Below, in pieces: positions 20,574 to 36,985 of a DNA stretch of 49,212 nucleotides; the first letter of the stretch is position 1, and each line of letters begins with the position of its first letter. A program made the translations under genes and the position numbers. This stretch comes from Bacteriovoracia bacterium (GTDB lineage: Bacteria > Bdellovibrionota > Bacteriovoracia > Bacteriovoracales > Bacteriovoracaceae), in the NCBI GenBank assembly GCA_030427595.1, contig JAUIBX010000004.1:1-49212 (forward strand), written 5' to 3'. Below the pieces are notes generated by a model. That model searched no databases. It was not told where the DNA came from and saw only the letters and a list, made by a program, of their open reading frames with translations.

Positions 20574-20597
20574 CAAGCATAGCCAAACGTCAGAGAA

Positions 20598-20725: not shown

Positions 20726-20851
20726 GCAAAGAGGTTTGCTTTAGACCAACAAAGTATCTTTCATTGATGCTTGGTTGTCACTGTGGTGACACCTGCATCA
20801 AGGTCGAATCGCATCAAAACCAGCCACTGGCTGCTTTTGCCGCTCACGAGA
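20709..20851 (-). repeat. Tandem repeat unit 1, containing the tRNA-Ser 5' end and two hairpins
   Basis: About 143 bp. The first 31 bp (20709-20739) include the 5' end of tRNA-Ser and recur exactly at 20852-20882. Inside are a hairpin at 20765-20800 (outer stem TGATGC/GCATCA, inner stems GGT/ACC and GTCAC/GTGAC, one bulged base) and a hairpin at 20821-20833 (CAGCC-ACT-GGCTG), followed by TTTTGCCGCTCACGA, which is shared with unit 2. Confidence 0.9.
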
Positions 20852-20982
20852 CACTCGGCCAATCCTCCGCAAAGAGGTTTGCGTAAAATGTTTCATTGAT
20901 GCTCGAATGTTACTCCGTAACATCGGCATCAAGGTCGAGTCGCTTCAAAACGGTCCACTGGACCCTTTTGCCGCTCACGAAA
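20852..20982 (-). repeat. Tandem repeat unit 2, with compensatory changes in both hairpins
   Basis: About 131 bp, the upstream neighbour of unit 1 on the minus strand. It begins with the same 31 bp. The first hairpin (20897-20931) keeps the outer TGATGC/GCATCA stem and the bulge, but the inner stems are CGA/TCG and TGTTAC/GTAACA. The second (20952-20964) is GGTCC-ACT-GGACC. Pairing is kept although the bases differ. A third, truncated start (14 bp of the tRNA end) follows at 20983-20996. Confidence 0.9.
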
Positions 20983-21039
20983 CAATCCTCCGCAAATGGA
21001 AATTTGAGCGGAATTTTTAACACAGGGTGCTTTAGGTGT

Positions 21040-21537
21040 CTAATATTCTGGATGTTTATACTTATACTGAGAGCGTTTTTGCTTGAAAAACTGACTCAAA
21101 AGCCGAGAACACTCATAATGACGCACACCACCCACAACAGGAAAGCTGTGGTTAAGTCTCTTATCTTGATGAACATCATAAGATAAGGAGAGGGCGCCTC
21201 CCTTGGGGTCGTAAGCGCCAAAAACCAATCGACCTATTCGAGCCTGCCAAAGAGCGCCCATGCACATCAAGCAGGGCTCTAGGGTTACTACCACAGTATA
21301 ATCTGTTAAGCGCCAATCCCCGATAGTCTCGCAGGCTTGAGAGATAACCGCTATTTCTGCATGACCTGTTGGGTTTTTTGTTTGCTCTTTATTATTCCCG
21401 GCCTTTGAAATTATTTTTCCCTGAGAGTCCACAAGACAAGCACCGATTGGTACCTCATCTCTCTTACCTGCTTCTTCCGCTTCCATGAGTGCTTCACCCA
21501 TGGCCCACTCAAGATCACGCATATTAAGAGGCTTCAT
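21040..21537 (-). CDS. tadA: tRNA-specific adenosine deaminase TadA
   Basis: Zinc deaminase that converts A34 to inosine in tRNA-Arg(ACG). The catalytic motifs are TGHAEIAVI (zinc histidine and proton-shuttle glutamate) and LEPCLMCMGAL (two zinc cysteines); VPIGACLV near the N-terminus is also typical. I chose the ATG at 21535-21537 (165 residues) because MKPLNMRDLEWAMGEAL aligns with the family start. A longer form beginning at 21573 would overlap the upstream gene by 50 bases. It overlaps the upstream membrane protein gene by 14 bases. Its substrate tRNA lies 1 kb away at 22579-22655. Confidence 0.95.
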   Translation of the reverse strand: MKPLNMRDLEWAMGEALMEAEEAGKRDEVPIGACLVDSQGKIISKAGNNKEQTKNPTGHAEIAVISQACETIGDWRLTDYTVVVTLEPCLMCMGALWQARIGRLVFGAYDPKGGALSLSYDVHQDKRLNHSFPVVGGVRHYECSRLLSQFFKQKRSQYKYKHPEY

Positions 21538-22249
21538 TTTTGAATTTTTTCTTGAGCTTAAGTTTACGTTCATTCTTCCAAAACTTTACGAAGTTATGAA
21601 ATAGAGAAGTATCACCGTCTTTTTCTAAAAGAAAGCGAACACCATAATTAAAAGGTCGGCCGACGCTATATTTCCTCTTGGACATAATTTCTACCTTAAA
21701 GCGCATGGCCTTGAGCTCATCAAAGGGCTCAATCGTTAGAACTTCACCAAGCTTAAAATCTTTAAAGGAGGCAACACAGCCAGCCTGGCGCCTCAAGTCG
21801 GTCAAGCGACCATCTGACTTTTCATCCTCAAACTCCACTTTGATTTTTAAATCATCACGGTAGCGAAAGTCATACTCCCACCAACTTACTATTGGATAAA
21901 AAATAGGGCTCCATAGTGAGTAGGATAAAATTCCAAGTAATACTAAAGAGGTAAGGTAGGCAACAAAGCTCATTGAGAAGAAGGGCTGCCCGAATATTTT
22001 AAGGACTAAAAAAAGGGCAAGAATTCCAACAAAGGTCCAAAAGGAATAGTAGAGCCTCTTCAAAAGTCTGAATAATAAATAGAAGTACCCTGAAGAGACA
22101 AAAAGCGCTCCAATTAAGGAAAGCCAGGTGGACTCTCTAGCTGCTTCATAGAAAAAGCCCAAAACCAAGAAAAAGAATATACCCCAGTGTAAGACTTCGG
22201 TACGGTCTATTTCTTGCTTAAGCTTTAATCTGTTAATCAATAACTTCAT
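21524..22249 (-). CDS. Membrane protein with a PilZ-like C-terminal domain
   Basis: A 241-residue protein. The first ~125 residues hold about four hydrophobic segments (LHWGIFFFLVLGFF, LIGALFVSSGYFYLL, FVGILALFLVLKIF, VAYLTSLVLLGILSY). The cytoplasmic remainder has the strand pattern of a PilZ domain: GRLTDLRRQAGCVASF, GEVLTIEPFDELKAMRFKVEI and a closing NYGVRFLL. The RxxxR and D/NxSxxG residues that bind cyclic di-GMP are not clearly kept, so it may be a non-binding variant. The C-terminus is lysine-rich. Translationally coupled to tadA. Function unknown. Confidence 0.55.
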   Translation of the reverse strand: MKLLINRLKLKQEIDRTEVLHWGIFFFLVLGFFYEAARESTWLSLIGALFVSSGYFYLLFRLLKRLYYSFWTFVGILALFLVLKIFGQPFFSMSFVAYLTSLVLLGILSYSLWSPIFYPIVSWWEYDFRYRDDLKIKVEFEDEKSDGRLTDLRRQAGCVASFKDFKLGEVLTIEPFDELKAMRFKVEIMSKRKYSVGRPFNYGVRFLLEKDGDTSLFHNFVKFWKNERKLKLKKKFKNEAS

Positions 22250-22289
22250 AAGAATAATTATACATCAAACCAGCAACTGTTCGAGCCAA

Positions 22290-22312
22290 CCCAACGAAGA
22301 AGATAAATGAAA
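22290..22312 (+). repeat. 23-bp repeat, copy 1
   Basis: CCCAACGAAGAAGATAAATG and the following AAA match 22446-22468 at all but two positions (CCCAACGRAGAAGATRAATG). The first copy lacks the structured element that precedes the second. Confidence 0.7.
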
Positions 22313-22390
22313 AAAATCGCTTCAAAAGCTTGAACAAACTAGTACGAGGTAAAACCATTTCTTTTCTATTTTATTTAGATTCAAGGCGGG

Positions 22391-22468
22391 GCTAGCGACG
22401 GCGACTGAGCGTACACCCGGTACGTGAAGGAGCTAGAGTCGCAGTCCCAACGGAGAAGATGAATGAAA
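22391..22468. repeat. Structured element with nested inverted repeats and repeat copy 2
   Basis: GCGACT (22401-22406) pairs with AGTCGC (22437-22442), and inside it CGTAC (22410-22414) pairs with GTACG (22420-22424). The element is GC-rich compared with its surroundings and ends in the 23-bp repeat at 22446-22468. It lies in a 329-base non-coding stretch upstream of tadA's partner gene and downstream of tRNA-Arg. It looks like a dispersed repeat, but I cannot show copies elsewhere. Confidence 0.55.
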
Positions 22469-22475
22469 GAGGAAA

Positions 22476-22537
22476 GAAATGGCGCACCCTGCCTGGGCGG
22501 CCCCGAGCGATCCGAACGCCCTTCGGGCTGCTTAGCT
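22476..22537 (-). pseudogene. Partial, interrupted copy of the tRNA-Arg 3' half
   Basis: Positions 22476-22491 repeat the CCA end and acceptor strand of tRNA-Arg(ACG) exactly. A 13-14-base GC-rich insertion follows (22492-22505), then GAGCGATCCGAACGCCC (T-arm, one change), then GCCC-TTC-GGGC as a new hairpin and TTAGCTC. It lacks an anticodon arm and cannot be a tRNA. It lies directly downstream of the real gene. Confidence 0.7.
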
Positions 22538-22578
22538 CAAAGAGATATTTATACTAGTGAAAATGGGGGGAGGAGAAA

Positions 22579-22655
22579 TGGCGCACCCTGAGCGATTCGA
22601 ACGCCCGACCTTCTGATCCGTAGTCAGATGCTCTATCCAGCTGAGCTAAGGGTGC
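22579..22655 (-). tRNA. tRNA-Arg (anticodon ACG)
   Basis: A 77-nt tRNA with encoded CCA. Acceptor GCACCCT pairs with AGGGTGC; D-arm AGCTCAGCTGGATAGAGC; anticodon stem TCTGA/TCAGA around CTACGGA with anticodon ACG; T-loop TTCGAAT. A34 is the target of TadA, giving ICG, which reads CGU, CGC and CGA. Last in the tRNA operon. Confidence 0.97.
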
Positions 22656-22732
22656 GGAAGTTTATGCGTTTTACCCACATTAAGCACATTTATCAAGGGT
22701 TTTATGCCTATATGCAAAGTAGGGTAAAAAAG

Positions 22733-22823
22733 TGGCGGAGATGGAGAGATTCGAACTCTCGGTACGGTCAGACCGTACGACACCTTAGCAAGGTGCTGCC
22801 TTCGACCACTCGGCCACATCTCC
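22733..22823 (-). tRNA. tRNA-Ser (anticodon GCT)
   Basis: Class II tRNA of 91 nt with CCA. Acceptor GGAGATG/CATCTCC; anticodon stem GCACC/GGTGT around TTGCTAA with anticodon GCT; long variable arm containing GTACGGTC-TGACCGTAC; T-loop TTCGAAT. Reads AGC/AGU. Confidence 0.97.
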
Positions 22824-22827
22824 TAAA

Positions 22828-22915
22828 TGGCGGAGGACACAGGATTCGAACCTGCGGACCCGTTAAGGTCAATGGTTTTCAAAACCACCGCTTTCGACCA
22901 CTCAGCCAATCCTCC
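22828..22915 (-). tRNA. tRNA-Ser (anticodon TGA)
   Basis: Class II tRNA of 88 nt with CCA. Acceptor GGAGGAT/GTCCTCC; anticodon stem GTGGT/AACCAT region around TTTGAAA with anticodon TGA; long variable arm; T-loop TTCGAAT. First gene of the operon, separated from tRNA-Ser(GCT) by 4 bases. Confidence 0.97.
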
Positions 22916-22970: not shown

Positions 22971-25900
22971 TTACCGAGATAACGCCCTAATTTGGTTCTC
23001 AACCTGCTTACGGTCCGGCGCGTTAGGATAGAGTTTAAGATATGTTCTAAACTCTTCGATCGCAAGACCACTCTGACCCACACCTTGATAGATAAAACCA
23101 AGCTGTTTTCTTATTTCAGGGTTTGAGGGTTCCTGTTTCTTCGCTCTCAAATACAACTCCCGTGCAATCTCATAGTTCCTTTGACTGAGTTTAATCCAGC
23201 CAAGACTCATAAGAGACTCCACATTCCTAGGATCTATAGAAATCGCTTGCTCTAAATTTTTAGAGGCATCGTTGTATTGGCCAATAATTCGCTGGGTTTC
23301 ACCAAGGATGTAATAGCCTTGATAGATTTTTGGATTATTTTCTTTTTCTTTTTCAGCTGCCTTAAGGGCATCTTTGTAGCTTTTAGTTTTAAGATGGACT
23401 TTTGCAATGAGGTAATACACACCAGGGTAAGTACTTAACCTTTTAGTAACCCCATCTAATACTGCGAGGGCCTGCTGATATTTACCAACTTCAGCGTAGG
23501 TTTTTCCCAAGAGCATTCTTGTCTCCACATCTCCAGGATTAATTTCAAGTAATGAGACAGCATTTTTTATAATCGATTCTTGGTTTTCTTCGATTCTTGC
23601 AGCTTTAATTAAGAATTTATAAAAAGCCGGATCTTCACTATTGAGTTTCTCTACCTTTTCTTTTATTTCTTTGAATTGAGCATATTGGCCATTTCTATAG
23701 TAGTAGGTGGCGATATCGCCCATTAGGCGAGGATGATCTCGGTGATCTTTGTTAAGTTCATTTTGTAAATAGCCAATGGCCGTCTCCGCTCCCTCTAAAT
23801 CAAATAAAATTTCCCCGTATAAAGATTTATATTCAACATTTAAAGGATCTAAAGTAATGGCCTCAGACAACTTCGCTTTACTTTCCTTATACTGGCGACT
23901 TTTAGAAAATATTTGGGCCATGAGAAAATAATCTTCGTCTCTCAAAGGATTTCTCGCTACTGATTGAGTAAGGAATTTAATGGCAAGAGGGTAGCGCTTA
24001 GCTCTAGCATAGTAATGACCTACTACTGATTCATAGAGGTGATGTTGCCTTAATTTAGAGTTTGAGATGGTTCCGACCTCAAGTTGGGCTTCATCAATTT
24101 TGTTCGCCTCATAAAGAGCCCGTACAAGCATAAAGCTGACCTCAGGGTTACGGGGAAATTCTTTTCTAAGAAAGGTCAAAGTATCAATTGCAGATTCATA
24201 GAAACCTCTTCTAATCTGTAAATCAGCCAGGTGAAGGTCTGCTGGAATAAAGCTTATGTCTAAATCAGTTGCTTCAATGGCAACTCTAAAAGCTTGCTCC
24301 CATTCTCTTTCCTTTGCTAACTTCTTTGAGCGACGAATCAGGTCAAGGGCCTTAGATTCAAGAATAATCTTCTCTGCAACCTGACCTCCGCCAACCTCAA
24401 GGCTAGCAAGCTTAGAGCGTAAACGATTTGTATCATTAATTTTCAAAGCAAGCCTGAAGAGAAATGCAGATTTTTTTACATCCTTATTATAGGCGGCCAA
24501 GATACCGATGTTCTCTAAGTAATTTGCGTAATAGCTTGGTGCCCCTTCATAATTGAGCTTTTCAACTTGTTTTAAAACGGAGGCAAACTTTCTAAAGTCC
24601 TGGCTTCTTAAAAGATAATCGGTGTACCTAAGCAAAAGTGCCACAGAAGAAGGAAACTTTAAAAGACCATCTTCTATTGTCTTCTTTCCAAGGTCATACC
24701 TCTCGTCCAGCGTATGAAATCGGCTAATTGCTAAATAAGCTTCAAGTGGAAGATTTGGGAATTTTTCAATCTTAGTCAAAATTTTTCTGGCTTGAATTAA
24801 ATCACCTACGTCAATGGCAAGGTCCAAATATAAGGAAAGTAGTTTTAGATTTGGTTTTCCAACTCTTAAGTAGTTTTCGATAAGATTTATCGCACTATTT
24901 AGTTTGCCATTATTTCGATAAAAGAGTACCGTTCCAATCGCAATATTCACATCTTTGAGAACTTTTGAGCGAGTAATTTTAATGAGATTAAAAATTATTG
25001 ATGAGCCTTTACTCTTATTTGAAACATTATTGAAGAGTTCCCCGTAGGTTAAGATGAGAAAACCTAGAGCAGGATTTGACTTAAATTTGTACTCTATTGA
25101 CTCTTTAAAAAAGGCACTTGCTTGAACCTTACTTAGATAGGTGCCACGTCTATAGGACTCTAAACCTTTGCTAAAAGATTCCTGTGCCTTATTTGGATCC
25201 TCTACTTCATAAGTTATCGGAGCTGTGATTTTAAGATACTTGGGCTCAAACTCTTTATCCTTAGGCTCCTCATCAAGTACAAACCAAACAATCGCCAAGA
25301 AAGCTATCGCCACAATCGGAGACATTCCTTTTTTCTTTGGTTTTTCTTCCTCTACCTCACCTTCAATCTCTTCTTCAGCCTTCTCTTCTTTTTCCTTTTG
25401 TCTTTTTTCCTCTTCGATTCTTCTTTCAAGAGCCCTGGCCTCTCTTTTTAGAGTAACAAGAGCACTCCCATCTATAAATTGAGTGGACTCGTCAAAGTCG
25501 ACAGACTCCTCTTCTTCCTTTGCCTCTTCCTTTAACTGTTCTTCTTGCTTTTTTCTAAGCTCTTCCTGCTTCTTTTTTTCTTCTTGTTCTTTTAACCACT
25601 TAAGAGCTTCAGGATTAACTTGTGTTTTATCGATTGAATCAGAGCTTGGCCGCTTTATGACAACGGTCTTTTCAATAGAATCCTCTGGGCCGTCCTCCTC
25701 TAGCGCCTCTGATTCTGGATCTTCTTCTTTTGATCCGTACTTTTTTTCAAGCTCCTCATAATCAACAAGTTGACTAGGCTCTTCTCTCGTAAATTTAAAT
25801 TCTTTGTGCTCATCCTCTTTTGCTACTTCACTCAATTCAGATATTTTCTTTAATTTCTCTTCCTTCTCCCTTTCCTTCTTTTGCTTTCTTGCGTTTTCAC

Positions 25901-26162
25901 TTTTTTTGACTAGAGAAATTCTTGCGATTGTTGAATCTGCGGACTGATTTTCTGGCTCTATGTCCTGACCAGAAGCTAAGCCTTCAATATATTTTGTTAT
26001 TTCTACAAACTTTCCTATGCTCTTCCAGTCACCCGTTGGAAAAACTTGTGCTTTTTCTTCACCTTGAATGTGACCTTTTTGATATAGCTCCCCAACCTGA
26101 GCCAGTAGAAAAGGGCCCACGATTCGTCCATTGGAAAGTTTAACTCGATACTTTTTGACCAT
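22971..26162 (-). CDS. GYF-domain, membrane-anchored TPR protein
   Basis: A 1063-residue protein. Residues 1-55 fit a GYF_2 domain (KLSNGRIVGPFLLAQVGELY, GDWKSIGKF). Residues ~65-275 are very rich in K and E and probably form a coiled coil or disordered arm. A single membrane segment (IVAIAFLAIVWFVL) lies near 283-297. From ~330 to the end are many TPR units, such as SYKDALKAAEKEKENNPKIY, DASKNLEQAISIDPRNVESL and GLAIEEFRTYLKLYPNAP. The GYF end should be cytoplasmic and the TPR end periplasmic. Large TPR proteins with this layout occur in gliding and envelope systems of delta-like bacteria. Function here is unknown. It starts 3 bases after the last hydrophobic gene of the nuo-like block. Confidence 0.75.
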   Translation of the reverse strand: MVKKYRVKLSNGRIVGPFLLAQVGELYQKGHIQGEEKAQVFPTGDWKSIGKFVEITKYIEGLASGQDIEPENQSADSTIARISLVKKSENARKQKKEREKEEKLKKISELSEVAKEDEHKEFKFTREEPSQLVDYEELEKKYGSKEEDPESEALEEDGPEDSIEKTVVIKRPSSDSIDKTQVNPEALKWLKEQEEKKKQEELRKKQEEQLKEEAKEEEESVDFDESTQFIDGSALVTLKREARALERRIEEEKRQKEKEEKAEEEIEGEVEEEKPKKKGMSPIVAIAFLAIVWFVLDEEPKDKEFEPKYLKITAPITYEVEDPNKAQESFSKGLESYRRGTYLSKVQASAFFKESIEYKFKSNPALGFLILTYGELFNNVSNKSKGSSIIFNLIKITRSKVLKDVNIAIGTVLFYRNNGKLNSAINLIENYLRVGKPNLKLLSLYLDLAIDVGDLIQARKILTKIEKFPNLPLEAYLAISRFHTLDERYDLGKKTIEDGLLKFPSSVALLLRYTDYLLRSQDFRKFASVLKQVEKLNYEGAPSYYANYLENIGILAAYNKDVKKSAFLFRLALKINDTNRLRSKLASLEVGGGQVAEKIILESKALDLIRRSKKLAKEREWEQAFRVAIEATDLDISFIPADLHLADLQIRRGFYESAIDTLTFLRKEFPRNPEVSFMLVRALYEANKIDEAQLEVGTISNSKLRQHHLYESVVGHYYARAKRYPLAIKFLTQSVARNPLRDEDYFLMAQIFSKSRQYKESKAKLSEAITLDPLNVEYKSLYGEILFDLEGAETAIGYLQNELNKDHRDHPRLMGDIATYYYRNGQYAQFKEIKEKVEKLNSEDPAFYKFLIKAARIEENQESIIKNAVSLLEINPGDVETRMLLGKTYAEVGKYQQALAVLDGVTKRLSTYPGVYYLIAKVHLKTKSYKDALKAAEKEKENNPKIYQGYYILGETQRIIGQYNDASKNLEQAISIDPRNVESLMSLGWIKLSQRNYEIARELYLRAKKQEPSNPEIRKQLGFIYQGVGQSGLAIEEFRTYLKLYPNAPDRKQVENQIRALSR

Positions 26163-26165
26163 TCT

Positions 26166-27302
26166 TTAGAAGCTGATAATAACACTCATTATTATAGCGG
26201 ATGCTAGGGAAAAATAGCTTAAGTGGTCAATTTTGCTTTCGTTTTCTTTAAACTTAAAGACTTTAAGCCAATAAGTCAGATTAATTATAGAAAATGGTAC
26301 TAGAAGGTAGAAATAAAGAGGACCGATGCCCTCAAGTTTAGAATAAACAAGACCTTCACTAAGAACTTTGTATAAGCTTCCAAAAATAGCTCCTGAAAGT
26401 AAAAGAGCCCCTAAAGAAAGCAGGAACCTAGAAAAATAGGACTTACTCTTTATAAATGAAACATAGGGGAGAAAAGTATATAAGCTAAACCCTATCAAAG
26501 CAGTCGTGAACTCTTCACTTAATTTATTATGCTGGGAAAAGAACAATAAAATCAAAGTAACTTCTAGAGATCTTCTATAGTTTTTCCAAATAGAGTTCTT
26601 ACTTCTACTCAAAAATATGCTCAACGCGCCCAAGAATCCAATTATCGTAATGGCAGTAAATATAGTTGATAGTGGCAGATTAATAATTGTCTTTGATCTC
26701 AGAACAGCTAGAAGAACCAGGCGGTTGGCCACAGGTTGAATAATTGTATCTTCGTTAGACTCCTCAAGGCCTAAAGGAAGTAGGTCAGAGGTAAACCAAT
26801 ATAGAAAAATAACAAGCGGAAGAGTAAGTTCCTTACCCTCAATATGATAAGCAAGTACGAGAAATATAATAATTGTTATACAAACCAATAAGTTTTTGAA
26901 TAAATAAGTCCAGTGCTTAGCATCGGCTCTTAAGATTGTTTGATAGAGAATTCCGAATGAAATTAAAAGAATGCTATTCTCAATCGTCAAGAAATTTAGG
27001 GATAAGTAAAAGATTAAAATATTAAGTAAAGGCTTTACATAATATGGAATAATCGAGGCGCCTGTTTTAGTTCTTTCAATCGCTAGCCAAAATAGAAATG
27101 ATTCAAAGACAAAGAAAGTACCAATGCTTCCATGCATATTTAACTTAAAAACAGACACCCCTAAAAATCTTTGCGCGAGAACTTCTAAACTAATCCATAA
27201 GAAAGTGATGAAGCTTAAATATTTTGCATACCTTTCTATTCTAAAGGTCGTCATTGACAATAAAAACCCTAAAATAGATGTAGCACCAAAAATACTCAGC
27301 AT
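26166..27302 (-). CDS. NuoN-like degenerate membrane protein (position N')
   Basis: A 378-residue protein with about 11-12 membrane segments, unrecognised by overall sequence. Local patterns parallel the NuoN encoded at 31428: YWFTSDLLPLGLEES then QPVANRLVLLAVLRSK matches the placing of HMWAPDVYEGS then LPVTAFFSIVPK. TIIGFLGALSIFLSRSKNSI matches LSIIGALTMTVGNVSAIGQR, and LLSLGALLLSGAIFGSLYKVL matches MFSLAGIPPFSGFVAKFHIF. The functional His-x-Trp, Pro-Lys and glycine-rich residues are lost. It is the last of seven hydrophobic genes that follow nuoA-N in the same order. No proton-pumping role should be assumed. Confidence 0.5.
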   Translation of the reverse strand: MLSIFGATSILGFLLSMTTFRIERYAKYLSFITFLWISLEVLAQRFLGVSVFKLNMHGSIGTFFVFESFLFWLAIERTKTGASIIPYYVKPLLNILIFYLSLNFLTIENSILLISFGILYQTILRADAKHWTYLFKNLLVCITIIIFLVLAYHIEGKELTLPLVIFLYWFTSDLLPLGLEESNEDTIIQPVANRLVLLAVLRSKTIINLPLSTIFTAITIIGFLGALSIFLSRSKNSIWKNYRRSLEVTLILLFFSQHNKLSEEFTTALIGFSLYTFLPYVSFIKSKSYFSRFLLSLGALLLSGAIFGSLYKVLSEGLVYSKLEGIGPLYFYLLVPFSIINLTYWLKVFKFKENESKIDHLSYFSLASAIIMSVIISF

Positions 27303-28300
27303 CTAGACTCCAATGACATATTCTTTAAAAAGCTAATCAAAGACATCAGGAGTATTAGCGATACTCCCAGCTTTTCATTCATGGAAAAAGTATTAGTCAT
27401 CATTGTCGGAACCACGGCTAAAATTACGACCAAAGAGACATATTCCCTCTTTATTAATTGAATAAGAGATTTAAAAAAGTCAGGACTGCCCTTTCCAATC
27501 AGTAAAATATTTAAAAGAACAAATAGAGGGTAAAAACTATTGTTTATAAAAATTAGCGGAAAAGCACATGCCCAAAAGCTTGCCTTACCGAAAAACAGTT
27601 TAAACGCGGAATATAATGCAAGAATGATCATTGTCATTTCAAAGGTTGTCGCTAGTCCCTGATGTTCGCTTTTGAGGATAGCGATAAGCCCTAACCATAC
27701 GATGAGATTCCACTGGTCTTCGATATTGTCTTGGCCTTCAATACGCTTTAAGTAATGAGCTGTAATGCTCACTAAGACTATAGATGTCAAAATTAATAGA
27801 ACTATGGCTACATCGACTAAAAGTAAGTTTGTTGAAAACAAACCAGATGTGCCACTTACCTTTGTCAGATTAACTCCATATAAGTCCAACATCCTAAACA
27901 TTAAAAAAAGAATGGGAATCATTGAGTATGATAAAATATAGCCTCGCGTTTTTTGCAATCCCTCGAATAACTTTATTAACCAGAAGACAAACACAGCCTG
28001 ATAAATATCAATAAAGTTATAACTATAAATACTCAAAGTTAATGAATATAGAATAAGAGGAAATAGAGAGACTAGCTTACTCACTTTATCCTTCAAAAGG
28101 TTCACCAGAACAAGACCAAGCGTACCTAGTACTGTAATATTCGCTGGATCATCGATTGGCAAAGTAAGGTAAGGATCTTTTAATAAAAAGAAATATAAGG
28201 TTGCAGCAAGCGATAAGGAGATAGGAATCCAACTCTGCCTGGACTTCAAAAAGAAGTCTGTCTTATAAAGTAAAAGAGGAATTAGGCCGATGCTTATCAC
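27296..28300 (-). CDS. NuoM-like degenerate membrane protein (position M')
   Basis: A 334-residue protein with about nine or ten membrane segments. Similarity to NuoM is faint. IYQAVFVFWLIKLFEGL is placed like FYVYWEVMLIPMFFLIG, with the essential membrane glutamate replaced, and LIAILKSEHQGLATTFEM is placed like AMAQTDVKKLVAYSSVSHM. Shorter than NuoM by about 175 residues. It overlaps the previous and next genes by 4 and 7 bases. On its own I would call it an unknown membrane protein; the NuoM label depends on gene order. Confidence 0.42.
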   Translation of the reverse strand: MISIGLIPLLLYKTDFFLKSRQSWIPISLSLAATLYFFLLKDPYLTLPIDDPANITVLGTLGLVLVNLLKDKVSKLVSLFPLILYSLTLSIYSYNFIDIYQAVFVFWLIKLFEGLQKTRGYILSYSMIPILFLMFRMLDLYGVNLTKVSGTSGLFSTNLLLVDVAIVLLILTSIVLVSITAHYLKRIEGQDNIEDQWNLIVWLGLIAILKSEHQGLATTFEMTMIILALYSAFKLFFGKASFWACAFPLIFINNSFYPLFVLLNILLIGKGSPDFFKSLIQLIKREYVSLVVILAVVPTMMTNTFSMNEKLGVSLILLMSLISFLKNMSLESRC

Positions 28301-29640
28301 TTTTTAAACATTCCTATTGCTACAATAAACCAAATAAAAAAAACAAAACCTACTGTTACTGGGAAAGATAAGTTAGCCTCAGGCAAAATAGATGCCTTTA
28401 TTAAATGGGCTTTAGGTTTCTTCTCAGTCTTTCTACTTATTCTTTTTTCGTTTGCATTATTGACCAAGTGACATTGCAAACGAAACTCTAAAGTCTGTAC
28501 TGTTTTAAAAAAACCAGGATATTTTTTATTCGCTACAGCCAGCAATAAACAAGTGATGGGAAAAGCACCAACCCAGAAAAAAGATTTTACTGTTACTAAT
28601 CCACTCAATGAAACCACTGCCAAAAGGCTAAACATTATATAGTTTGCCAGCTTTACCCTTGGCTCATCTTCTTGGCCTCTATCCTGCGAAATTATTAATC
28701 GAATAATCCACAATAGATAGAGGGATAGAAAAAACCAAGCATTACCTTCTGACTTTGTTTCGAAGAAGAAAGAAAAGGGTGTAAAAGAAAGGCCCGAAAC
28801 TAAGAGTATTCCGAAAAAAATAAAACTCAATACAGCATAGTCTACTTCCAATGAACCTTTTTTAAAGTTTATCTTTAGTAAATCTCGATAAATCGTTTTT
28901 AGCATTTCACTTGAAAGTGCTATGGTTAAAAATGTCGTTAAATAAATTACTGGCTCGGGTTTAAAAAACAACGCCAAACATAGAGAGGAGACAAGTGCTG
29001 CAACCTCATCTTCTTTTTCCATCCTAAATAGAACCAAAGATAAAAAGGCTAAGATCATCAAGCTATTGCTCAACAGGGGTGTCGTATCATTAAGAAGAAA
29101 TGTTCCCATAGAAAGGATGAGTATATTCATAAAGCGATATTTTTTATAAAACAGATTGTAAAAAAAGATGCCCATTGCAACTCCGATCAAACCAATCGTG
29201 AGAAGACTTTCGTCTTGTCCAGACACCCCCACATTAAAAAATATAGAGTATAGGATTATCGAAAAGCTAGATATACAATTGAGCAAGCTTTTCCTTTTTA
29301 CAGCTGTTAAGAAAAGAAAAAATGATAGGCTAAAAAAGCTAGCAAACAACGAGGCTTCAAAAACTTTCAATGTAAAGATATAAGATAGGGACAAGTAGAG
29401 ATAAAAGTCATCCTCATTTTTTAAGGTTTTACTTAACATTGGTGCTATTAATGCCCCAATTAAATAAACCGATGTCAAACCATCAAACTCTAATAAATCA
29501 AACCGGGAAAATGCTGTGACGATAACGAGAAGAAGTAATTGATAAATATTTAAGAAGTTTAAACCTAATGGCTTCTTTTCAAAAAGACTTAATATAACCA
29601 AGAGCATTAGGGCAAGGTGGATCAAAAACAAATAATACAC
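28297..29640 (-). CDS. NuoL-like degenerate membrane protein (position L')
   Basis: A 447-residue protein with about 12 membrane segments, the largest of the seven, as NuoL is the largest in the intact set. NEDDFYLYLSLSYIFTLKVF parallels KRYGRFFVYLSLFTSAMLAL of NuoL at a similar place. The C-terminal part has a long non-membrane stretch (KYPGFFKTVQTLEFRLQCHL, then a basic segment) and a final membrane helix (VTVGFVFFIWFIVAIGMF), reminiscent of the lateral helix and last helix of NuoL. The FxFWE motif with its glutamate is absent (ASFFSLSFFLFL). Function unknown. Confidence 0.45.
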   Translation of the reverse strand: MYYLFLIHLALMLLVILSLFEKKPLGLNFLNIYQLLLLVIVTAFSRFDLLEFDGLTSVYLIGALIAPMLSKTLKNEDDFYLYLSLSYIFTLKVFEASLFASFFSLSFFLFLTAVKRKSLLNCISSFSIILYSIFFNVGVSGQDESLLTIGLIGVAMGIFFYNLFYKKYRFMNILILSMGTFLLNDTTPLLSNSLMILAFLSLVLFRMEKEDEVAALVSSLCLALFFKPEPVIYLTTFLTIALSSEMLKTIYRDLLKINFKKGSLEVDYAVLSFIFFGILLVSGLSFTPFSFFFETKSEGNAWFFLSLYLLWIIRLIISQDRGQEDEPRVKLANYIMFSLLAVVSLSGLVTVKSFFWVGAFPITCLLLAVANKKYPGFFKTVQTLEFRLQCHLVNNANEKRISRKTEKKPKAHLIKASILPEANLSFPVTVGFVFFIWFIVAIGMFKK

Positions 29641-29641
29641 G

Positions 29642-29878
29642 CTAATTGCTCCCCTTGCTTTTTTTCTTCAACATTAAAAATGCCGATTTCGTTAAGACTA
29701 TACATATAAGTAGAGGATAAATTTTACCAACCTCAGACCCAGGTAAAAAAAGAAAGAGAAAGCTGGTTATAAAAATCAAGAATCCCGTGGCACTATAGAC
29801 TATTTCTCCTACCTCTTTGCTTAAGATCATATTTAAAAATAGTGACATGGATATAAAAGCGAGCACAATTCCCATCAT
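29642..29878 (-). CDS. NuoK-like small membrane protein (position K')
   Basis: A 78-residue protein with three membrane segments, the topology of NuoK/MrpC. The third (KIYPLLICIVLTKSAFLML) is placed like HLMSLFIIVIAAAEAAVGLA of NuoK. The two membrane glutamates of NuoK, in IELILN and AAAEAAVG, have no counterpart. Overlaps J' by 4 bases and lies 1 base before L'. It occupies the same relative slot as nuoK in the upstream cluster. Confidence 0.5.
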   Translation of the reverse strand: MMGIVLAFISMSLFLNMILSKEVGEIVYSATGFLIFITSFLFLFLPGSEVGKIYPLLICIVLTKSAFLMLKKKSKGSN

Positions 29879-30300
29879 TGTTTTATTCTCCTCATGCTCA
29901 AACTAAAGAAGATGAATAAAATAATAATGACTGCAACTTCTGTGCTTCTTAAAATTTCACTACTAATTGATATAGATTTCATTGCGCTTTCTAGGTCTTT
30001 ACGAAACAAAAAATAAAGTCCAAACCCTGGCAATAGACCAATATAAACAGAAGATTTTTCTTTTACAGTTGAATGTCTTGGCCTTTTCACTTTTTCAAAG
30101 TGCTTATGACTAAAAAAGATGAGAGGTATGAAAAGGGCAAAGAACAACAGAGAAAAGATAATACCTTTTTCAATGGCAATAATGAGAGAGAGTGACAAAA
30201 GGGAAAGGTGAAGAGACTGCAGAGGGTTTTTCTTACCCGCAACTAGTGTGTAAACACCGATTAAAAAAACCAATGTGGGCCATAAGTATAGTTTAATCAT
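29875..30300 (-). CDS. NuoJ-like membrane protein (position J')
   Basis: A 141-residue protein with about four or five membrane segments. VYTLVAGKKNPLQSLHLSLL then LSLIIAIEKGIIFSLLFFAL has the form of NuoJ (VVFSKNLMHACVLLLGSL, then IAGLYATIGADFLAASQLVI). The last segment, STEVAVIIILFIFFSLSMRR, matches the NuoJ ending (FEISSILLLGALVGAAVIAR). The conserved VYAGG(V/A) motif of NuoJ helix 3 is absent. Overlaps H' by 8 bases. Of the seven it is one of the better matches to its counterpart. Confidence 0.52.
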   Translation of the reverse strand: MIKLYLWPTLVFLIGVYTLVAGKKNPLQSLHLSLLSLSLIIAIEKGIIFSLLFFALFIPLIFFSHKHFEKVKRPRHSTVKEKSSVYIGLLPGFGLYFLFRKDLESAMKSISISSEILRSTEVAVIIILFIFFSLSMRRIKQ

Positions 30301-31171
30301 TAAGCTTGAGACCCTTTTCTACCTTGATTGAACTGTACTTAAATACCCAAATTATGATTATACAAAAAACGTACTTCGCCATAAGGCTTATATTCTGCAA
30401 TAAAATTGTTTCTATGCCTGGAGTTATGTTTTGTTTTTCTAAAAAAGAGGGTAGGCCGTATCCTCCAAGAAAGCCATAAATGAAAAGCAAAACATAAGTA
30501 TTCAAAAAAATATGGTTAATTAAAGTAAAAGGGCTTTTGGGATTATTAATTTCAGATATAAATATTAATACCATTAAAATAAACCCTAATGGGTTTTTCA
30601 GTAAGAAATAATTTCTTAGTCCAAACTCATTGAAGCTTTTTTGATACTGGACCATTTGCTCTATAGAAAAGGTCGGAATACTTGTTAAAAAGGTTAACAG
30701 CAGAAGAAAAAGTAATAATATTTTTAAAAACGAAGTTTTATAATTTTTTTCATACAGAGTTCTGAGACTTTCTCCGCCTATTAAAATACTAAAGAAATAA
30801 ATCCAAGAGTTTTCGTTAGATATTAAGCCTAAAAAAGACTCCACTCCAAAGAAATCCACCCGATCTGACATTTGTAAAAAGAAGAGGGGGAAAACTCCTG
30901 CTAATAAAGTTAATCCATAAAGGAAGAGGCTTTTTAGTTTATTTGAGCTTGATTCTATAAATAGCCCATTGTTTTCACTTACGGCCCTAATTAATAAGAC
31001 CTTTAAAATTGAAAAATTTGCTATCTTTTTCCTATTGAAAATAGTTATGAACTCTTCCCTTATCCACAAGGAGAAGGATAAAAAGAAAAATAACATTAAA
31101 AGGAAATGCACTGTCCTTAGTGATTCCACTAAAAAAATCAAAAAACACCGCCTATGTTTTTCCAATAGCAA
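30293..31171 (-). CDS. NuoH-like membrane protein (position H')
   Basis: A 292-residue protein with seven or eight membrane segments. Near residue 205 LIFISEINNPKSPFTL is placed like the NuoH signature MLAETNRAPFDLPEAESE, keeping a glutamate and the PF pair but losing the arginine and acidic residues of the quinone channel. FLGGYGLPSF then follows as FLGGYRVPF does in NuoH, and MAKYVFCIIIIWVFKYSSIK parallels LTKTLFLYYVVIWVRWTFPR. The only in-frame start near the A' end is TTG at 31169-31171, without a clear ribosome site; GTG codons further in are alternatives. No catalytic role is evident. Confidence 0.52.
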   Translation of the reverse strand: MLLEKHRRCFLIFLVESLRTVHFLLMLFFFLSFSLWIREEFITIFNRKKIANFSILKVLLIRAVSENNGLFIESSSNKLKSLFLYGLTLLAGVFPLFFLQMSDRVDFFGVESFLGLISNENSWIYFFSILIGGESLRTLYEKNYKTSFLKILLLFLLLLTFLTSIPTFSIEQMVQYQKSFNEFGLRNYFLLKNPLGFILMVLIFISEINNPKSPFTLINHIFLNTYVLLFIYGFLGGYGLPSFLEKQNITPGIETILLQNISLMAKYVFCIIIIWVFKYSSIKVEKGLKLND

Positions 31172-31424
31172 ATAGTGAAAGAACTGTTGCTATTATTACG
31201 CCTAGAACTATTTTAGGACTTTCTGCTAGAAAAGAATAATTTATGTTGAAAAACTTTATATAAATCGCCCATGCAATGACTGGTAACAAGACAATCACTG
31301 GACCCGGTCCCTTAACTAGGACCTGCGAGTAAATTACAGGGAAATTTGGCTTCTTGGAAAAAATGAGAAGGGCCACTGTTAGTAAAACTAAAGTGGCCCC
31401 ACTTATAATCGTAGCTATTGACAT
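31152..31424 (-). CDS. Small three-helix membrane protein (position A')
   Basis: A 90-residue protein with three membrane segments (IISGATLVLLTVALLIF; PVIVLLPVIAWAIYIKFF; IVLGVIIATVLSLFAI). The topology is that of NuoA, and it occupies the slot equivalent to nuoA, first of the seven. I see no convincing sequence match to NuoA: the YECG and F-D-x-E motifs are missing. It starts 3 bases after nuoN and overlaps H' by 20 bases. Treat as a hypothetical protein. Confidence 0.4.
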   Translation of the reverse strand: MSIATIISGATLVLLTVALLIFSKKPNFPVIYSQVLVKGPGPVIVLLPVIAWAIYIKFFNINYSFLAESPKIVLGVIIATVLSLFAIGKT

Positions 31425-31427: not shown

Positions 31428-32894
31428 TTATTGAATAAAAATTTTAGCGCCATCTGCCATGAGAAGCAGTTTTTCCCAGAATACTCCAAGAAGGACTACA
31501 GGAACAGTTAAGGCAACCACGACACTCTGATTCAGGATATTGAATCCACCAATTGTATCTTTGCTCTCGGCGTCTTTGAGGACCATGAGGCGAACGATCT
31601 TCAAGTAGTAGTAAAGAGCAACCACTGAGTTTAAGCCTGCAATAATTGCAAGAACGTAATACTTCTTTGTAAGAAGAGCCGTAAAAATATGAAACTTAGC
31701 AACAAAACCACTAAACGGTGGAATCCCAGCAAGACTGAACATGACAACTGCTAACGCTATTGACATTAGAGGGTAGCGAAAGATGAGTCCATTAAATCTT
31801 TCAAAATGGTCATTACCATACTTATCATTAACAAATGACACCACCATAAAGGCTGCCATAGTCATGAATAGGTAAGTGAGAGAGTAGAAGATTACACTTC
31901 TTGTGCCCAATTCAGAGATTACTAAAACCCCCATGAGCATCATTCCTGCATGTGAAATTGAAGAGTAGGCGAGCATTCTTTTAACAGATCTCTGGCCTAT
32001 GGCACTTACGTTTCCGACAGTCATTGTGAGTGCGCCGATGATTGAAAGAACACCGACCCAGCCAATATTAAGTGCACCCTCTACTGCAAAAAAGTTGTGT
32101 GAGATTCTTATTAAAGCTGCAAGACCCGCTACTTTAGGTACGATACTAAAAAAAGCAGTTACTGGTAGTGGGGAACCCTCGTAAACATCTGGTGCCCACA
32201 TGTGAAAAGGTACACAAGCGATTTTATAACCAAGACCGACTAAAAACAGAAGAAATGATGGCATCAGGATCGCCAATTGTGCCGTCTCCACACCCTTGAG
32301 GGCCGCTGCCATTTCTGTAAAGTTTATAGTTCCAAGCACTCCAAATATATGACTCATTCCAAAGAGCATGATTCCAGAACTAATTCCGCCATATAAAGAG
32401 TATTTAAGACCAGCCTCTGAACTTCTATCGTCACCCTTTCTTAAGCTCGCCAATACATAAGAAAGTATTGAAAGTGTTTCAATGCCGATAAAAAGTACCA
32501 GCATGTTATTGGCAGAAGAAAGAAGCATTCCTCCGACAAGAACACCTGTAGCCATAATAACGAACTCAGGCTTTAGGTTGCCCTCAATATCCTTGCTTTG
32601 ACTTGTGATATAAACAGCGAGAAGTGTCCCTAAAACCATGATCACTTTCATAATAGATGAAAAGGGATCAATTACGAGACTATTCGTAAAAATTGTCACT
32701 GCTGGTTTACTTAAAGAGAAAAATGAGAAGGTCATTACAGAGCCAAGACCTAGATAAGCTGAAAGAAAGAAAAATCCTCTTCCTTTCTCTTCCTCCTTGT
32801 AGGTTGCCTCGATGAGGATCAATCCAAACATAGTTAAACAAGCGAGGAGCTCTGGTACGTAATGACTTAAACTGGCTAAATAATTTTGGCCCAT
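31428..32894 (-). CDS. nuoN: NADH-quinone oxidoreductase subunit N
   Basis: A 488-residue antiporter-like subunit of the complex I membrane arm with about 14 helices. Key motifs: VLFIGIETLSILSYVLA with the helix-5 glutamate near residue 138, LGYKIACVPFHMWAPDVYEG near 222, VTAFFSIVPKVAG with the lysine near 250, and MLAYSSISHAGMMLMG near 310. Complete length. The ATG at 32892-32894 has GAGGT upstream. It follows nuoM and precedes the unrecognised hydrophobic set. Confidence 0.97.
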   Translation of the reverse strand: MGQNYLASLSHYVPELLACLTMFGLILIEATYKEEEKGRGFFFLSAYLGLGSVMTFSFFSLSKPAVTIFTNSLVIDPFSSIMKVIMVLGTLLAVYITSQSKDIEGNLKPEFVIMATGVLVGGMLLSSANNMLVLFIGIETLSILSYVLASLRKGDDRSSEAGLKYSLYGGISSGIMLFGMSHIFGVLGTINFTEMAAALKGVETAQLAILMPSFLLFLVGLGYKIACVPFHMWAPDVYEGSPLPVTAFFSIVPKVAGLAALIRISHNFFAVEGALNIGWVGVLSIIGALTMTVGNVSAIGQRSVKRMLAYSSISHAGMMLMGVLVISELGTRSVIFYSLTYLFMTMAAFMVVSFVNDKYGNDHFERFNGLIFRYPLMSIALAVVMFSLAGIPPFSGFVAKFHIFTALLTKKYYVLAIIAGLNSVVALYYYLKIVRLMVLKDAESKDTIGGFNILNQSVVVALTVPVVLLGVFWEKLLLMADGAKIFIQ

Positions 32895-32906
32895 TTTTTA
32901 CCTCAA

Positions 32907-34439
32907 TTAGTAAGTTGCAAGCATACTTACAAGTTTCCCTACAGAAGCTCTCATCACATTGAGAACTGGTGCCGGATAAATTCCAAAAACAATAACGGCA
33001 ACACAAAGAGGAACCATGTAAGCGATTTCGCGAGCATTCATATCTGTGTAGCTCTTACATTCTTCAATGACGTCGCCAAAGAACATTCTTTTGAACATCC
33101 AAAGTAGGTAGGCTGCACCAAGAAGAAGACCAATAAGGGCCAGCACAGTAATCGTTGTATATTTCTCATAAATACCAAGGAAGATTAGTGCTTCAGAGAT
33201 AAAGCCGGATAGGCCTGGGAGACCCATTGAAGCAAACATCGCAATGATAAATACGATAGAAAACCTTGGTAGTTGGGTATAGAGACCGCCAAAACCTTTG
33301 GAACCATCTGGTCTAACGATCCATCTGTGGTGTGAGCGCTCGTAAAGAATACCGATAAGAAGGAACATCATCGCAGTTGAGGTTCCGTGGTTGAACATTT
33401 GAAGTACAGCCCCATTCATACCTGTCACTGTCATAGCTGCAAGTCCAAGCATTACAAAGCCCATGTGAGAAACAGAAGAGTAAGCTACAAGCTTTTTCAC
33501 GTCAGTTTGGGCCATTGCACAGAAGGCACCATAAATGACATTTACAAGGCCCAACCAAGCAATAGCATCAGCAAAGTGAACTGATGCTGCAGGAAAAATC
33601 GGGTAAGCAATTCTTAAAAAGCCGTAAGTCCCCATCTTCAAAAGAACACCAGCAAGGATTACAGAAACTGCAGTTGGTGCCTGAACGTGAGCATGAGGTA
33701 GCCATGTATGGAATGGGAAGACTGGTACCTTAATGGCAAAGCCAATAAATAAGAAAATAAAGAAAAGCTTAGCAAAGCTTACTGAAGTTCCAAAAAGCTC
33801 AAGGTTAAGACTAGAGAACTTACCACCCTGTAACGCGAGGATATTGAAGCTATCAACCCCCTTACCAGAGGCGTAGTAAAGAGCAACCATACCTACAAGC
33901 ATCAAGATTGAACCAAAGAAAGTGTAGAGAAAGAACTTAACGGCAGCGTACTCTCTATTTTCACCACCCCAAATACCAATCAGGAAGAACATTGGAATGA
34001 GCATAACTTCCCAGTAGACGTAGAAGAGGAAAAAATCCATTGCTAGAAAGACCCCAAAGACTGTCGACTGCAGAAATAAGAAAAGAGCAAAATAGCCTTT
34101 AACTTGCTTATTAACCGTCCAGGAGGAAAGGATACAAAGAAAGAATAAAAGACCTGTCAGGATAATCATTGGAAGAGAAATGCCATCTACTCCAAGACTA
34201 TAGAAGATATTAAAGCTGCTAATCCAAGGCATCTTTACATTAAATGCTGTTTGCATACCTGGCACAGTGGTATCAAACTTTGAGTAGAGCACCAATGTAA
34301 GAGCAAAAGTGACTGCTGTGTTGATCAGTGACCACCATCTAATAGCGTTCTCTTTTGACTTAGGTAGAAGTAAAACCCCTATTACACCGATAAAAGGTGT
34401 CCATAGGATCCAATTTAGAAGGTTTGATGATGCCTGCAC
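32907..34439 (-). CDS. nuoM: NADH-quinone oxidoreductase subunit M
   Basis: A 510-residue antiporter-like proton-channel subunit. Motifs: FYVYWEVMLIPMFFLIGIWG with the essential glutamate near residue 145, VPVFPFHTWLPHAHVQAPTA near 240, LAGVLLKMGTYGFLRI near 262 and KKLVAYSSVSHMGFV near 318, then GLPGLSGFISE. The start codon is GTG at 34437-34439, with AAGGAG eight bases upstream. Complete, about 14 helices. Confidence 0.97.
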   Translation of the reverse strand: MQASSNLLNWILWTPFIGVIGVLLLPKSKENAIRWWSLINTAVTFALTLVLYSKFDTTVPGMQTAFNVKMPWISSFNIFYSLGVDGISLPMIILTGLLFFLCILSSWTVNKQVKGYFALFLFLQSTVFGVFLAMDFFLFYVYWEVMLIPMFFLIGIWGGENREYAAVKFFLYTFFGSILMLVGMVALYYASGKGVDSFNILALQGGKFSSLNLELFGTSVSFAKLFFIFLFIGFAIKVPVFPFHTWLPHAHVQAPTAVSVILAGVLLKMGTYGFLRIAYPIFPAASVHFADAIAWLGLVNVIYGAFCAMAQTDVKKLVAYSSVSHMGFVMLGLAAMTVTGMNGAVLQMFNHGTSTAMMFLLIGILYERSHHRWIVRPDGSKGFGGLYTQLPRFSIVFIIAMFASMGLPGLSGFISEALIFLGIYEKYTTITVLALIGLLLGAAYLLWMFKRMFFGDVIEECKSYTDMNAREIAYMVPLCVAVIVFGIYPAPVLNVMRASVGKLVSMLATY

Positions 34440-34476
34440 GGAATTTCTCCTTTCTCTGCTATAAACAACACTTTAT

Positions 34477-36645
34477 TTAAATTTTTAAAGTCCAAATGTA
34501 ACCAGTTAAAACCAAGATAATCATAATGAAATAAAACTGAATCTTGCCTGACTGGATAGTTCTTAAAATCACATTGAAAAAGCGAACACTTGCACCTGTA
34601 CCATCAACAGCAACAGTATCAACGATGATATTGTCGAACCATTTTGAAATTGTGAAAAGTGCACGATTTACCTTCTCCCAGCCATCAATCGCGTAGCGAT
34701 CGTAGAGACCCATATCAATAAAGGCGAGTAGGCGGTTGAGAGGTAGTAGTCCTTTTTGAATTAAACCTTTGATATAGAAATCATCAAAGTAGTACTTATT
34801 TTGAAGAGCTCTATACCAGCGAGAAAATAAAGAAACCCAAAAGCCAGGGTTCCATGAACGCCAAAAATACATCATGGCAGAAATAAAGACCCCACTAAAG
34901 GCGATAATGATCGAAACCAAAGCACCGATATGATGAACATGGTGGATATGGTGAGCTTTTTCCTCACTCAAGCCATAAGTACTATCATACTTTGATTTAC
35001 TGAATGTTTCACCGCTTGGGTTCGCTGTAAAAGAAAGAGGTTGTGCCTGTCTACCAGAGAAGTCCGTTTTTGTAGGGTTTACGATTAAGGTTTTAAACCA
35101 CTCGTACTTCTCACTAGATACTTTGATAAATCCTTGGCCAGTTAAAGATCCAGAAAAGAACACACCTAGAGTGAAAACAGACAAAATAAGAAGTGGGACG
35201 TTTCTATTCCAGCTTAATCCCTCTTTCTTAGTATGATCATAAAGTTCTTTATCTCTTGGCTCTCCAAAGAAAGTTAAGAACATCATTCTAAACATGTAGA
35301 ACGCTGTAAGAAGTGCGCCACCAAAACCAAGAACAGCTGGGCCCCAATAGGCTTTGTTATCTAAGGCCATAAGAAGAGCATCACCTAAAATACGGTCCTT
35401 TGAAACAAAACCACTGAAGAATGGAATCCCTGCAATTGCAAAAGTACAGAGAAGCATGGCCAAGAAAGTGTATGGCATTTTGGTTCTCAGGCCACCCATT
35501 CTTGGCATTTCTTGAACATGGGCATGGGTATGATGATCATGAAGAGAGTGGATCACAGATCCTGCGGATAAGAAGAGACATGCTTTAAAAACAGCGTGTG
35601 TAATTAAGTGCATGAAAGCAGCGTTGTAAGAACCAACCCCTACACCTAAAACCATATAGCCAAGCTGTGAAATAGTGGAGTAGGCAAGCACCGCTTTAAT
35701 ATCTGTTTGTACCAAGGCAATAGTCGCTGCACCAAAAGCTGTGATACCACCAATGTAAGCAATGAACATTGTAAGGTGCCCAGCTTCCATTAGGGGGTAG
35801 CAACGAAGACTTAAATATACCCCCGCAGCAACCATTGTAGCCGCGTGAATGAGAGCTGAACACGGGGTTGGACCCCACATCGCATCCGGTAGCCAAACCT
35901 GTAGAGGAAATTGAGCTGACTTTCCAATAGTACCCATAAAGATACTAAAGCCTGCAAAAGTTGCTAGAGGGATACCTAATGCGTAAAGGCCATTGAACTT
36001 ACCCATTCCGATGGCCTGATAAATATCAACAAATGAAACGCTTCCAACTACTGACCAAATGGCAAGAATACCGAGAAGAAAGAAGACATCCCCCACTCTT
36101 GTGGTCATGAAAGCTTTAATAGATGCATTTCCTGCACCTTCTTTTTCGTAGTAAAAGCCAATAAGGGAGTAAGAACAAAAGCCCATAAGCTCCCAAAAAA
36201 TGAATACTGAAATGAGGTTTTCAGAAAGAACAAGGGCCAACATGGCGCTTGTAAAAAGAGATAAGTAAACGAAAAACCTTCCGTATCTCTTGTCATCATG
36301 CATGTAATAAGTTGAGAAAATATGAATAAGTGACGCTACACCTGTAACCATGAAGAGCATGGTTGCAGTCATATTGTCGATATAAATCCCCATATCTAAC
36401 TTGAATGGGAATGAGCCGTAAGAGAGATCAAACCACGTAAATGTCTTGTGGATGTAATAATCAGCTGAAAATACATTCAAAAAGTCAAAAAAGACTCGTG
36501 CTGCATAAAAGAAAGAGCCAATTATTGAAGCACAACTTATAAAAACTGCCAGTGAAGTGAAGCGCTTTACAATAAACGCATTAATAACGAATGCGAAAAA
36601 CGGCAAAAGAACAATGGGGGCGATGGTACTGATCGTATATTCCAT
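34477..36645 (-). CDS. nuoL: NADH-quinone oxidoreductase subunit L
   Basis: A 722-residue distal subunit of the membrane arm. FIFWELMGFCSYSLIGFY near residue 150 holds the helix-5 glutamate, QFPLQVWLPDAMWGPTPCSA follows near 240, then VKAVLAYSTISQLGYM-type sequence (DIKAVLAYSTISQLGYMVLG). A histidine-rich loop HDHHTHAHVQEMPRMGG lies near 375. The long C-terminal part with the lateral helix is present. The ATG follows AGGAAAT. Longer than the E. coli protein by roughly 110 residues, chiefly in a soluble insert near 510-580 that contains a second histidine-rich stretch (KAHHIHHVHHIG). Confidence 0.97.
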   Translation of the reverse strand: MEYTISTIAPIVLLPFFAFVINAFIVKRFTSLAVFISCASIIGSFFYAARVFFDFLNVFSADYYIHKTFTWFDLSYGSFPFKLDMGIYIDNMTATMLFMVTGVASLIHIFSTYYMHDDKRYGRFFVYLSLFTSAMLALVLSENLISVFIFWELMGFCSYSLIGFYYEKEGAGNASIKAFMTTRVGDVFFLLGILAIWSVVGSVSFVDIYQAIGMGKFNGLYALGIPLATFAGFSIFMGTIGKSAQFPLQVWLPDAMWGPTPCSALIHAATMVAAGVYLSLRCYPLMEAGHLTMFIAYIGGITAFGAATIALVQTDIKAVLAYSTISQLGYMVLGVGVGSYNAAFMHLITHAVFKACLFLSAGSVIHSLHDHHTHAHVQEMPRMGGLRTKMPYTFLAMLLCTFAIAGIPFFSGFVSKDRILGDALLMALDNKAYWGPAVLGFGGALLTAFYMFRMMFLTFFGEPRDKELYDHTKKEGLSWNRNVPLLILSVFTLGVFFSGSLTGQGFIKVSSEKYEWFKTLIVNPTKTDFSGRQAQPLSFTANPSGETFSKSKYDSTYGLSEEKAHHIHHVHHIGALVSIIIAFSGVFISAMMYFWRSWNPGFWVSLFSRWYRALQNKYYFDDFYIKGLIQKGLLPLNRLLAFIDMGLYDRYAIDGWEKVNRALFTISKWFDNIIVDTVAVDGTGASVRFFNVILRTIQSGKIQFYFIMIILVLTGYIWTLKI

Positions 36646-36671
36646 ACTTATTTCCTAACCTCTAACTCTTC

Positions 36672-36977: not shown

Positions 36978-36985
36978 AAGTATCC

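Follow-up and report, generated by a model that had tools for sequence, protein, structure and literature searches.

Identity of the seven reading frames downstream of nuoN

The window analysed here is the whole stretch of 49,212 nucleotides at positions 1 to 49,212 of contig JAUIBX010000004.1 (assembly GCA_030427595.1), which belongs to a Bacteriovoracia bacterium of the family Bacteriovoracaceae. It encodes the membrane arm of an active respiratory complex I, nuoA-H-J-K-L-M-N, directly followed on the same strand by seven open reading frames (ORFs) for hydrophobic proteins. Which genes are these, and why are they kept? An earlier note on this DNA had read them as a decayed or repurposed second membrane arm. 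In the following, Nuo1 denotes the active complex I-1 and Nuo2 complex I-2, whose diverged subunits carry a prime (A'-N', B', CD', F', G', I'). Genomes are numbered G (G000 contains the window), genera g and families f (f1 is the family of the window).

The seven genes descend from complex I genes, and comparison with relatives indicates that they form the membrane arm of a second complex I, arranged A-H-J-K-L-M-N, because the same slot holds genes recognisable as Nuo genes, in this order, in other genomes. In G020, all seven ORFs of the slot match, in order, Oxidored_q4, NADHdh, Oxidored_q3, Oxidored_q2 and Proton_antipo_M (L, M and N), all above the curated cut-offs. The seven ORFs of G026 still exceed the cut-offs in order, with lower scores than in G020, and in G061 only A (27.6 bits), H (99 bits) and K (41 bits) do so. 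None of the seven window proteins reaches any Pfam or NCBIfam family cut-off. One gene slot thus presents a graded series from seven Pfam matches (G020, G026) over three (G061) to zero (window), and the ordered matches from A to N which the earlier note had expected are obtained via relatives (Pfam, G020 and G026), not from the window proteins themselves. Together with the purifying selection described below, this supports the view of a decayed but maintained second arm. Descent from complex I and maintenance of the seven-gene arm, taken together, can be accepted with very high confidence. The best explanation overall, with a probability of about 0.6, is a retained second complex I which does not pump and is kept as an inactive partner or scaffold.

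The same pattern recurs in 38 genomes of the family, each with seven ORFs of the same relative sizes between nuoN and a gene for a tetratricopeptide repeat (TPR) protein; the parallel to the nuo genes in size and order is therefore not due to chance. These genomes were grouped by inspection into four with canonical copy-2 arms (genus g15: G020, G155, G200 and G214), five with intermediate arms (G026, G028, G061, G188 and G068) and 29 with decayed arms (17 genera, window included). Over the part covered by their contigs, the second arms of G034 and G059 appear canonical, too.

For profile comparison, the 29 decayed arms were compared with the canonical and intermediate copy-2 arms using hhalign, with reversed sequences as control (0-2% probability). 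H' matched copy-2 NuoH with a probability of 99% over 289 columns and N' matched NuoN with 96% over 368 columns; J' reached 56% and K' 40%, and each of these four was best on the diagonal among the seven. A phmmer chain led from window H' to canonical NuoH at < 1e-5; with faster phmmer settings, a link from window to canonical proteins below 1e-3 was obtained for H' only and for none of the other six. A', L' and M' of the window are identified by position, because their own profile signal is 7% and near noise (A') or absent (L', M').

The block runs from 31424 to 26166 on the minus strand, and its coordinates, strand and sizes (90/292/141/78/447/334/378 amino acids) were confirmed. A' (31152..31424, 90 amino acids) lies in the slot which matches Oxidored_q4 with 96 bits in G020, 68 bits in G026 and 27.6 bits in G061 (cut-off 23.3). 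H' (30293..31141) is identified by hhalign, the phmmer chain and its tree; judging from the alignment with orthologues, a start at TTG 31141 (282 amino acids) is more likely than one at 31171 (292 amino acids). J' (29875..30300, 141 amino acids) is identified by its hhalign match and by Oxidored_q3 in the same slot of G020 and G026, and K' (29642..29878, 78 amino acids) by hhalign and Oxidored_q2 in G020, G026 and G061. L' (28297..29640, 447 amino acids) is assigned by position, with Proton_antipo_N/M in the slot of G020 and Proton_antipo_M in that of G026; its polar stretch and last transmembrane (TM) helix may recall the lateral helix of NuoL. Position alone assigns M' (27296..28300, 334 amino acids), the slot matching Proton_antipo_M in G020 and G026, as does the slot of N' (26166..27302, 378 amino acids), which in addition has its hhalign match. 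Spacing is tight throughout: 3 nt between nuoN and A', -20 to +1 nt among the seven ORFs and 3 nt between N' and the TPR gene.

Loss of functional motifs

Ten functional motifs across NuoA, H, K, L, M and N were searched for. Some patterns are strict and also miss distant canonical homologues, so that what counts is the comparison inside the family. The motifs were found in 0/29 decayed arms and in 0-1 of the five intermediate arms, as against 6/6 Nuo1 arms (one motif 5/6) and 4/4 canonical copy-2 arms (one loose motif 2/4). The losses in all 29 decayed arms include the proton-channel and antiporter motifs (TM5 Glu of NuoL/M, TM7 Lys of NuoL/M/N, Glu of NuoK) as well as the quinone-site motifs of NuoH (ENRxPFD and GPNRxG loops). 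The absence of proton-pumping and quinone-channel residues, which had been noticed in the window, is thus confirmed for the decayed arms at large.

Conservation and selection

Of the six same-genus genomes searched, one is fragmented, and the other five carry these seven ORFs at the corresponding position. Over the family, the arm is retained in many genera. The named relatives found in a public collection are without exception metagenome-assembled genomes assigned to Bacteriovoracaceae, Bacteriovoracales or Halobacteriovoraceae.

The ratio of non-synonymous to synonymous substitution rates (dN/dS) was calculated for genus g3 (G008, G076 and G117) and is about 0.1-0.3 for all seven genes, where estimable; the figures are rough, since dS is near saturation. 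In this genus, third codon positions vary much more than second positions, and ORF lengths are almost fixed (e.g., 107/107, 298/298, 155/155 and 93/93). Close pairs are therefore under purifying selection. L' and M' diverge fastest, with 33-39% and 36-53% identity, respectively, in g3 and about 20% in the genus of the window. The seven frames are open in all 38 genomes, as expected from the proposal that they are maintained, and a cluster of pseudogenes was rejected, as there are neither broken frames nor neutral codon evolution.

A diverged peripheral arm at a separate locus

A search with PF00346 returned a second NuoD-like gene, of NuoCD length, in most of the 44 family genomes searched. 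In G020, it is part of a canonical peripheral operon, B-CD-E-F-G-I, which is flanked by genes for a lipoprotein and an aat-like protein. The genome of the window has, at the same place, the genes lipoprotein-B'-CD'-F'-G'-I' (contig C94, L105:6555-13232). B' matches Oxidored_q6 with 64 bits, CD' matches Complex1_49kDa with 167 bits and I' is a 4Fe-4S dicluster protein; F' has no Pfam match and G' has a single match, below the threshold; both are regarded as remnants. The locus was found in about 30 genomes, most of which retain only B', CD' and I'; recognisable domains of the NADH module have been lost. The membrane arm proposed at the outset stands, but since a diverged peripheral arm is kept at another conserved locus, the retained set amounts to the larger part of a complex.

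The decayed B' and I' proteins share roughly 20-50% identity with the canonical ones of G020, and the residue counts for B', CD' and I' carry some error due to the alignment of such diverged sequences. With this proviso, all four N2 cysteines of B' are present in 17/25 non-canonical genomes, and all eight ligand cysteines of I' in 19/23 genomes (lost in 4/23). The ligand cysteines of the iron-sulphur (Fe-S) clusters N6a, N6b and N2 are present in the window's genome and most others, where, judging from these residues, the second complex can presumably still hold the three clusters. The cysteine motifs of G' are also retained in the window's genome (by inspection). In the quinone site of CD', the second His of HPATHG is found in 1/25 and the Tyr of YTDR in 6/25 genomes, neither of them in the window's genome, while almost all genomes have the C-terminal Asp-Arg of CD'.

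The lipoprotein-like protein upstream of B' (L105:6555-8156) has about 530 amino acids with about ten cysteines and matches no Pfam family. It occurs in nearly all f1 genomes with Nuo2, and is missing from G032 as well as from G060 and G143, the latter two showing no Nuo2.

Origin of the second arm

In the NuoH tree as in the NuoN tree, Nuo1 is united in a single clade (100/100), which excludes the decayed arms of f1 and leaves them on the side of the family's canonical Nuo2; the branches are very long and finer placement is unsafe. This indicates that the decayed arm is an old, separate Nuo2 lineage and not a copy of the adjacent arm. On the basis of both trees, a tandem duplication of the latter was rejected, and the wording "second copy" chosen at the outset has to be corrected in this respect. 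Tandems of Nuo1 and Nuo2 also exist in other families of the phylum.

Both arms of the tandem are recognisable in genomes of f3 and f7; in f4, a like arrangement begins and is then cut off by the end of the contig. In f8, f15 and f17, a canonical Nuo2 operon is preceded by a diverged arm (L193, L195, L197 and L198). This front arm groups with Nuo1 in f8 and f15; that of f17 has diverged too far to be placed firmly in a tree and was assigned by position only. The NuoD-like proteins beside the diverged arm lack the usual quinone-site motif in all three families. From the tandem arms of f3 and f7 and the front-arm decay in f8, f15 and f17, it follows that the Nuo1-Nuo2 pair is probably older than f1, and that which copy decays probably differs between lineages.

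Function of the second complex and alternative explanations

According to the preferred explanation, the seven-gene membrane arm and B', CD', the F'/G' remnants and I' from the other locus would form one set, and it is likely, as far as sequences can tell, that these proteins still assemble as a complex, i.e., a non-pumping pseudo-complex I. This would be kept because something binds it, most probably the active complex I-1 encoded directly upstream; the lipoprotein and the TPR protein, encoded beside the two arms, may be involved too. In most lineages, such a pseudo-complex may also pass electrons or sense the redox state via N6a, N6b and N2. A role as partner or scaffold is preferred over a new activity because of the joint retention of the remaining subunits, the adjacency and tight packing of the arms and the opposite decay in other families; taken on its own, this role is given slightly less than an even chance. 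A more specific and tentative version would be that, in this phylum, the two enzymes were joined in one supercomplex as obligate partners, after which either could lose its chemistry, not its presence. On this supercomplex version, which is likewise tentative, it would be Nuo2 that became a dead pseudo-complex I in one family, and Nuo1 that did so in others.

Several observations weigh against a retained partner complex. The slot between nuoN and the TPR gene is empty in five genomes (G030, G060, G073, G074 and G143) and G010 has only a partial second arm; hence, the arm is dispensable at that place. G030 and G074 retain worn peripheral genes, and the lipoprotein of G030 is truncated. The N2 ligands are lost or incomplete in 8/25 genomes (G010, G016, G027, G033, G061, G068, G074 and G083). 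L' and M' of the 29 decayed arms gave zero signal against NuoL and NuoM by direct profile comparison, and AlphaFold models of L' and M' from six same-genus sequences failed (mean predicted local distance difference test, pLDDT, of 42 and 43). Finally, dS is near saturation in the very pairs used for dN/dS.

The main alternative is that the complex is still redox-active and has taken on another task: electrons would pass via I' (in the window's genus perhaps also via the G'/F' remnants) through N6a, N6b and N2 to a non-quinone acceptor, or would cause a shape change as in a redox sensor, without proton pumping. This rival draws on the Fe-S ligands of B' and I', which are kept far better than the rest, on the cysteine motifs of G' in the window's genome and on the Complex1_49kDa domain of CD', which is still recognisable. 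A conserved electron path is difficult to reconcile with the six genomes (G016, G027, G033, G061, G068 and G083) in which the N2 ligands are gone or incomplete and the seven membrane ORFs are nevertheless retained, with the loss of most quinone-site residues, and with the near absence of invariant residues in L' and M' even inside the genus; this rival is considered rather unlikely. The empty and partial slots can also be read as the end of a slow decay, in which the complex has lost its use, deletion lies ahead and frames are open only because decay is slow. The full series from canonical (G020) over decayed and partial (G010) to absent, as well as the truncated lipoprotein and worn peripheral genes of G030, would fit such a relic. 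Yet all seven frames are open in the 29 decayed genomes, second codon positions are far less changed than third ones, dN/dS is low in close pairs and lengths are nearly fixed in g3; neutral ORFs would not be expected to survive over such divergence. Due to these selection data, slow terminal decay is improbable. That the seven genes are unrelated and merely resemble the nuo size pattern would agree with the missing family matches of the window proteins, but is contradicted by the recognisable NuoA/H/J/K/L/M/N of the same slot in G020 and G026, and for H' and N' by their profile matches and the tree of H'; it can be set aside almost completely.

Relation to known systems

Nuo2 shares with respiratory complex I (NDH-1, 14 subunits) the subunit set, the order A-H-J-K-L-M-N, a fused NuoCD and, in most genomes, the Fe-S ligands of NuoB and NuoI. 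It differs in that the NADH module is absent or a remnant, the quinone-site and proton-channel motifs are lost and most proteins are beyond the family models. Mrp antiporters and membrane-bound hydrogenases are built from NuoL/M/N-, K- and H-like proteins, but Nuo2 has genes of the NuoA and NuoJ types as well as the set CD'/B'/I', which point to complex I. As in pseudoenzyme subunits beside an active paralogue, catalytic residues have been lost and the proteins retained. Pseudoenzymes are usually single subunits, whereas in Nuo2 about ten subunits of one enzyme are apparently inactive together. The set B'-CD'-I' plus seven-gene arm of most genomes lacks the NADH module like the 11-subunit enzyme of Desulfitobacterium (PMC11238625). 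The quinone module (Q-module) of the latter is taken to work as in complex I (PMC11238625), but its key residues are mostly lost in Nuo2. The open literature yielded no paper on duplication or degeneration of complex I in this phylum; work in subscription journals could be missed.

If the preferred explanation holds, a whole respiratory complex would be kept over long periods of evolution without pumping and quinone motifs, a natural separation of the structural from the catalytic role of complex I; in the supercomplex version, an entire multi-subunit respiratory enzyme would be kept to support its active counterpart structurally. Within one slot, the range from intact to extreme arms displays what is given up (NADH module, proton-channel motifs and quinone site) and what tends to last (overall size pattern and Fe-S ligands). 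Because it is the other copy that has decayed in other families, a physical partnership of two complex I enzymes can be tested directly.

Active complex I-1 and neighbouring genes

The Nuo1 membrane arm (39170→31428, minus strand) lies directly upstream of the decayed arm; NuoA and NuoH reach 101 and 367 bits in Pfam, and the catalytic motifs are present. No NuoE-, NuoF- or NuoG-specific domain (PF01512, PF10588, PF01257) was found in the whole genome G000 (window 31428-39170 and contig C316, L112) or in several relatives; hence, the active Nuo1 of the family looks like the 11-subunit type without NADH module. Enzymes of this type are known (PMC11238625). The Na+-translocating NADH:quinone oxidoreductase (Na+-NQR) reported in Bacteriovorax marinus (PMC4014512) could handle NADH in these bacteria. 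Besides Nuo1 and a decayed Nuo2, some family members possess one more complete nuo operon at another place (L113, G070).

The TPR protein (22971..26162, minus strand, 1063 amino acids) is encoded by the last gene of the cluster and matches TPR families; its N-terminus is GYF-like, with weak matches to GYF_2 only. The gene closes the cluster in the genomes read, and in those that lack a second arm it likewise comes after nuoN. The TPR protein is thus not specific to the decayed arm, for which the earlier note had suggested it as a partner, and a dedication to this arm was rejected. In family f12, a protein of 947 amino acids with a start similar to that of the TPR protein is encoded after the genome's only nuoN (L201:16450-19293).

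Elsewhere in the window, a signal recognition particle (SRP) RNA gene and four tRNA genes (20213-22915) lie within a GC-richer patch near 20-23 kb. Two adjacent genes at 16359-17443 encode putative MglA/MglB polarity protein-like products, recognised by eye only.

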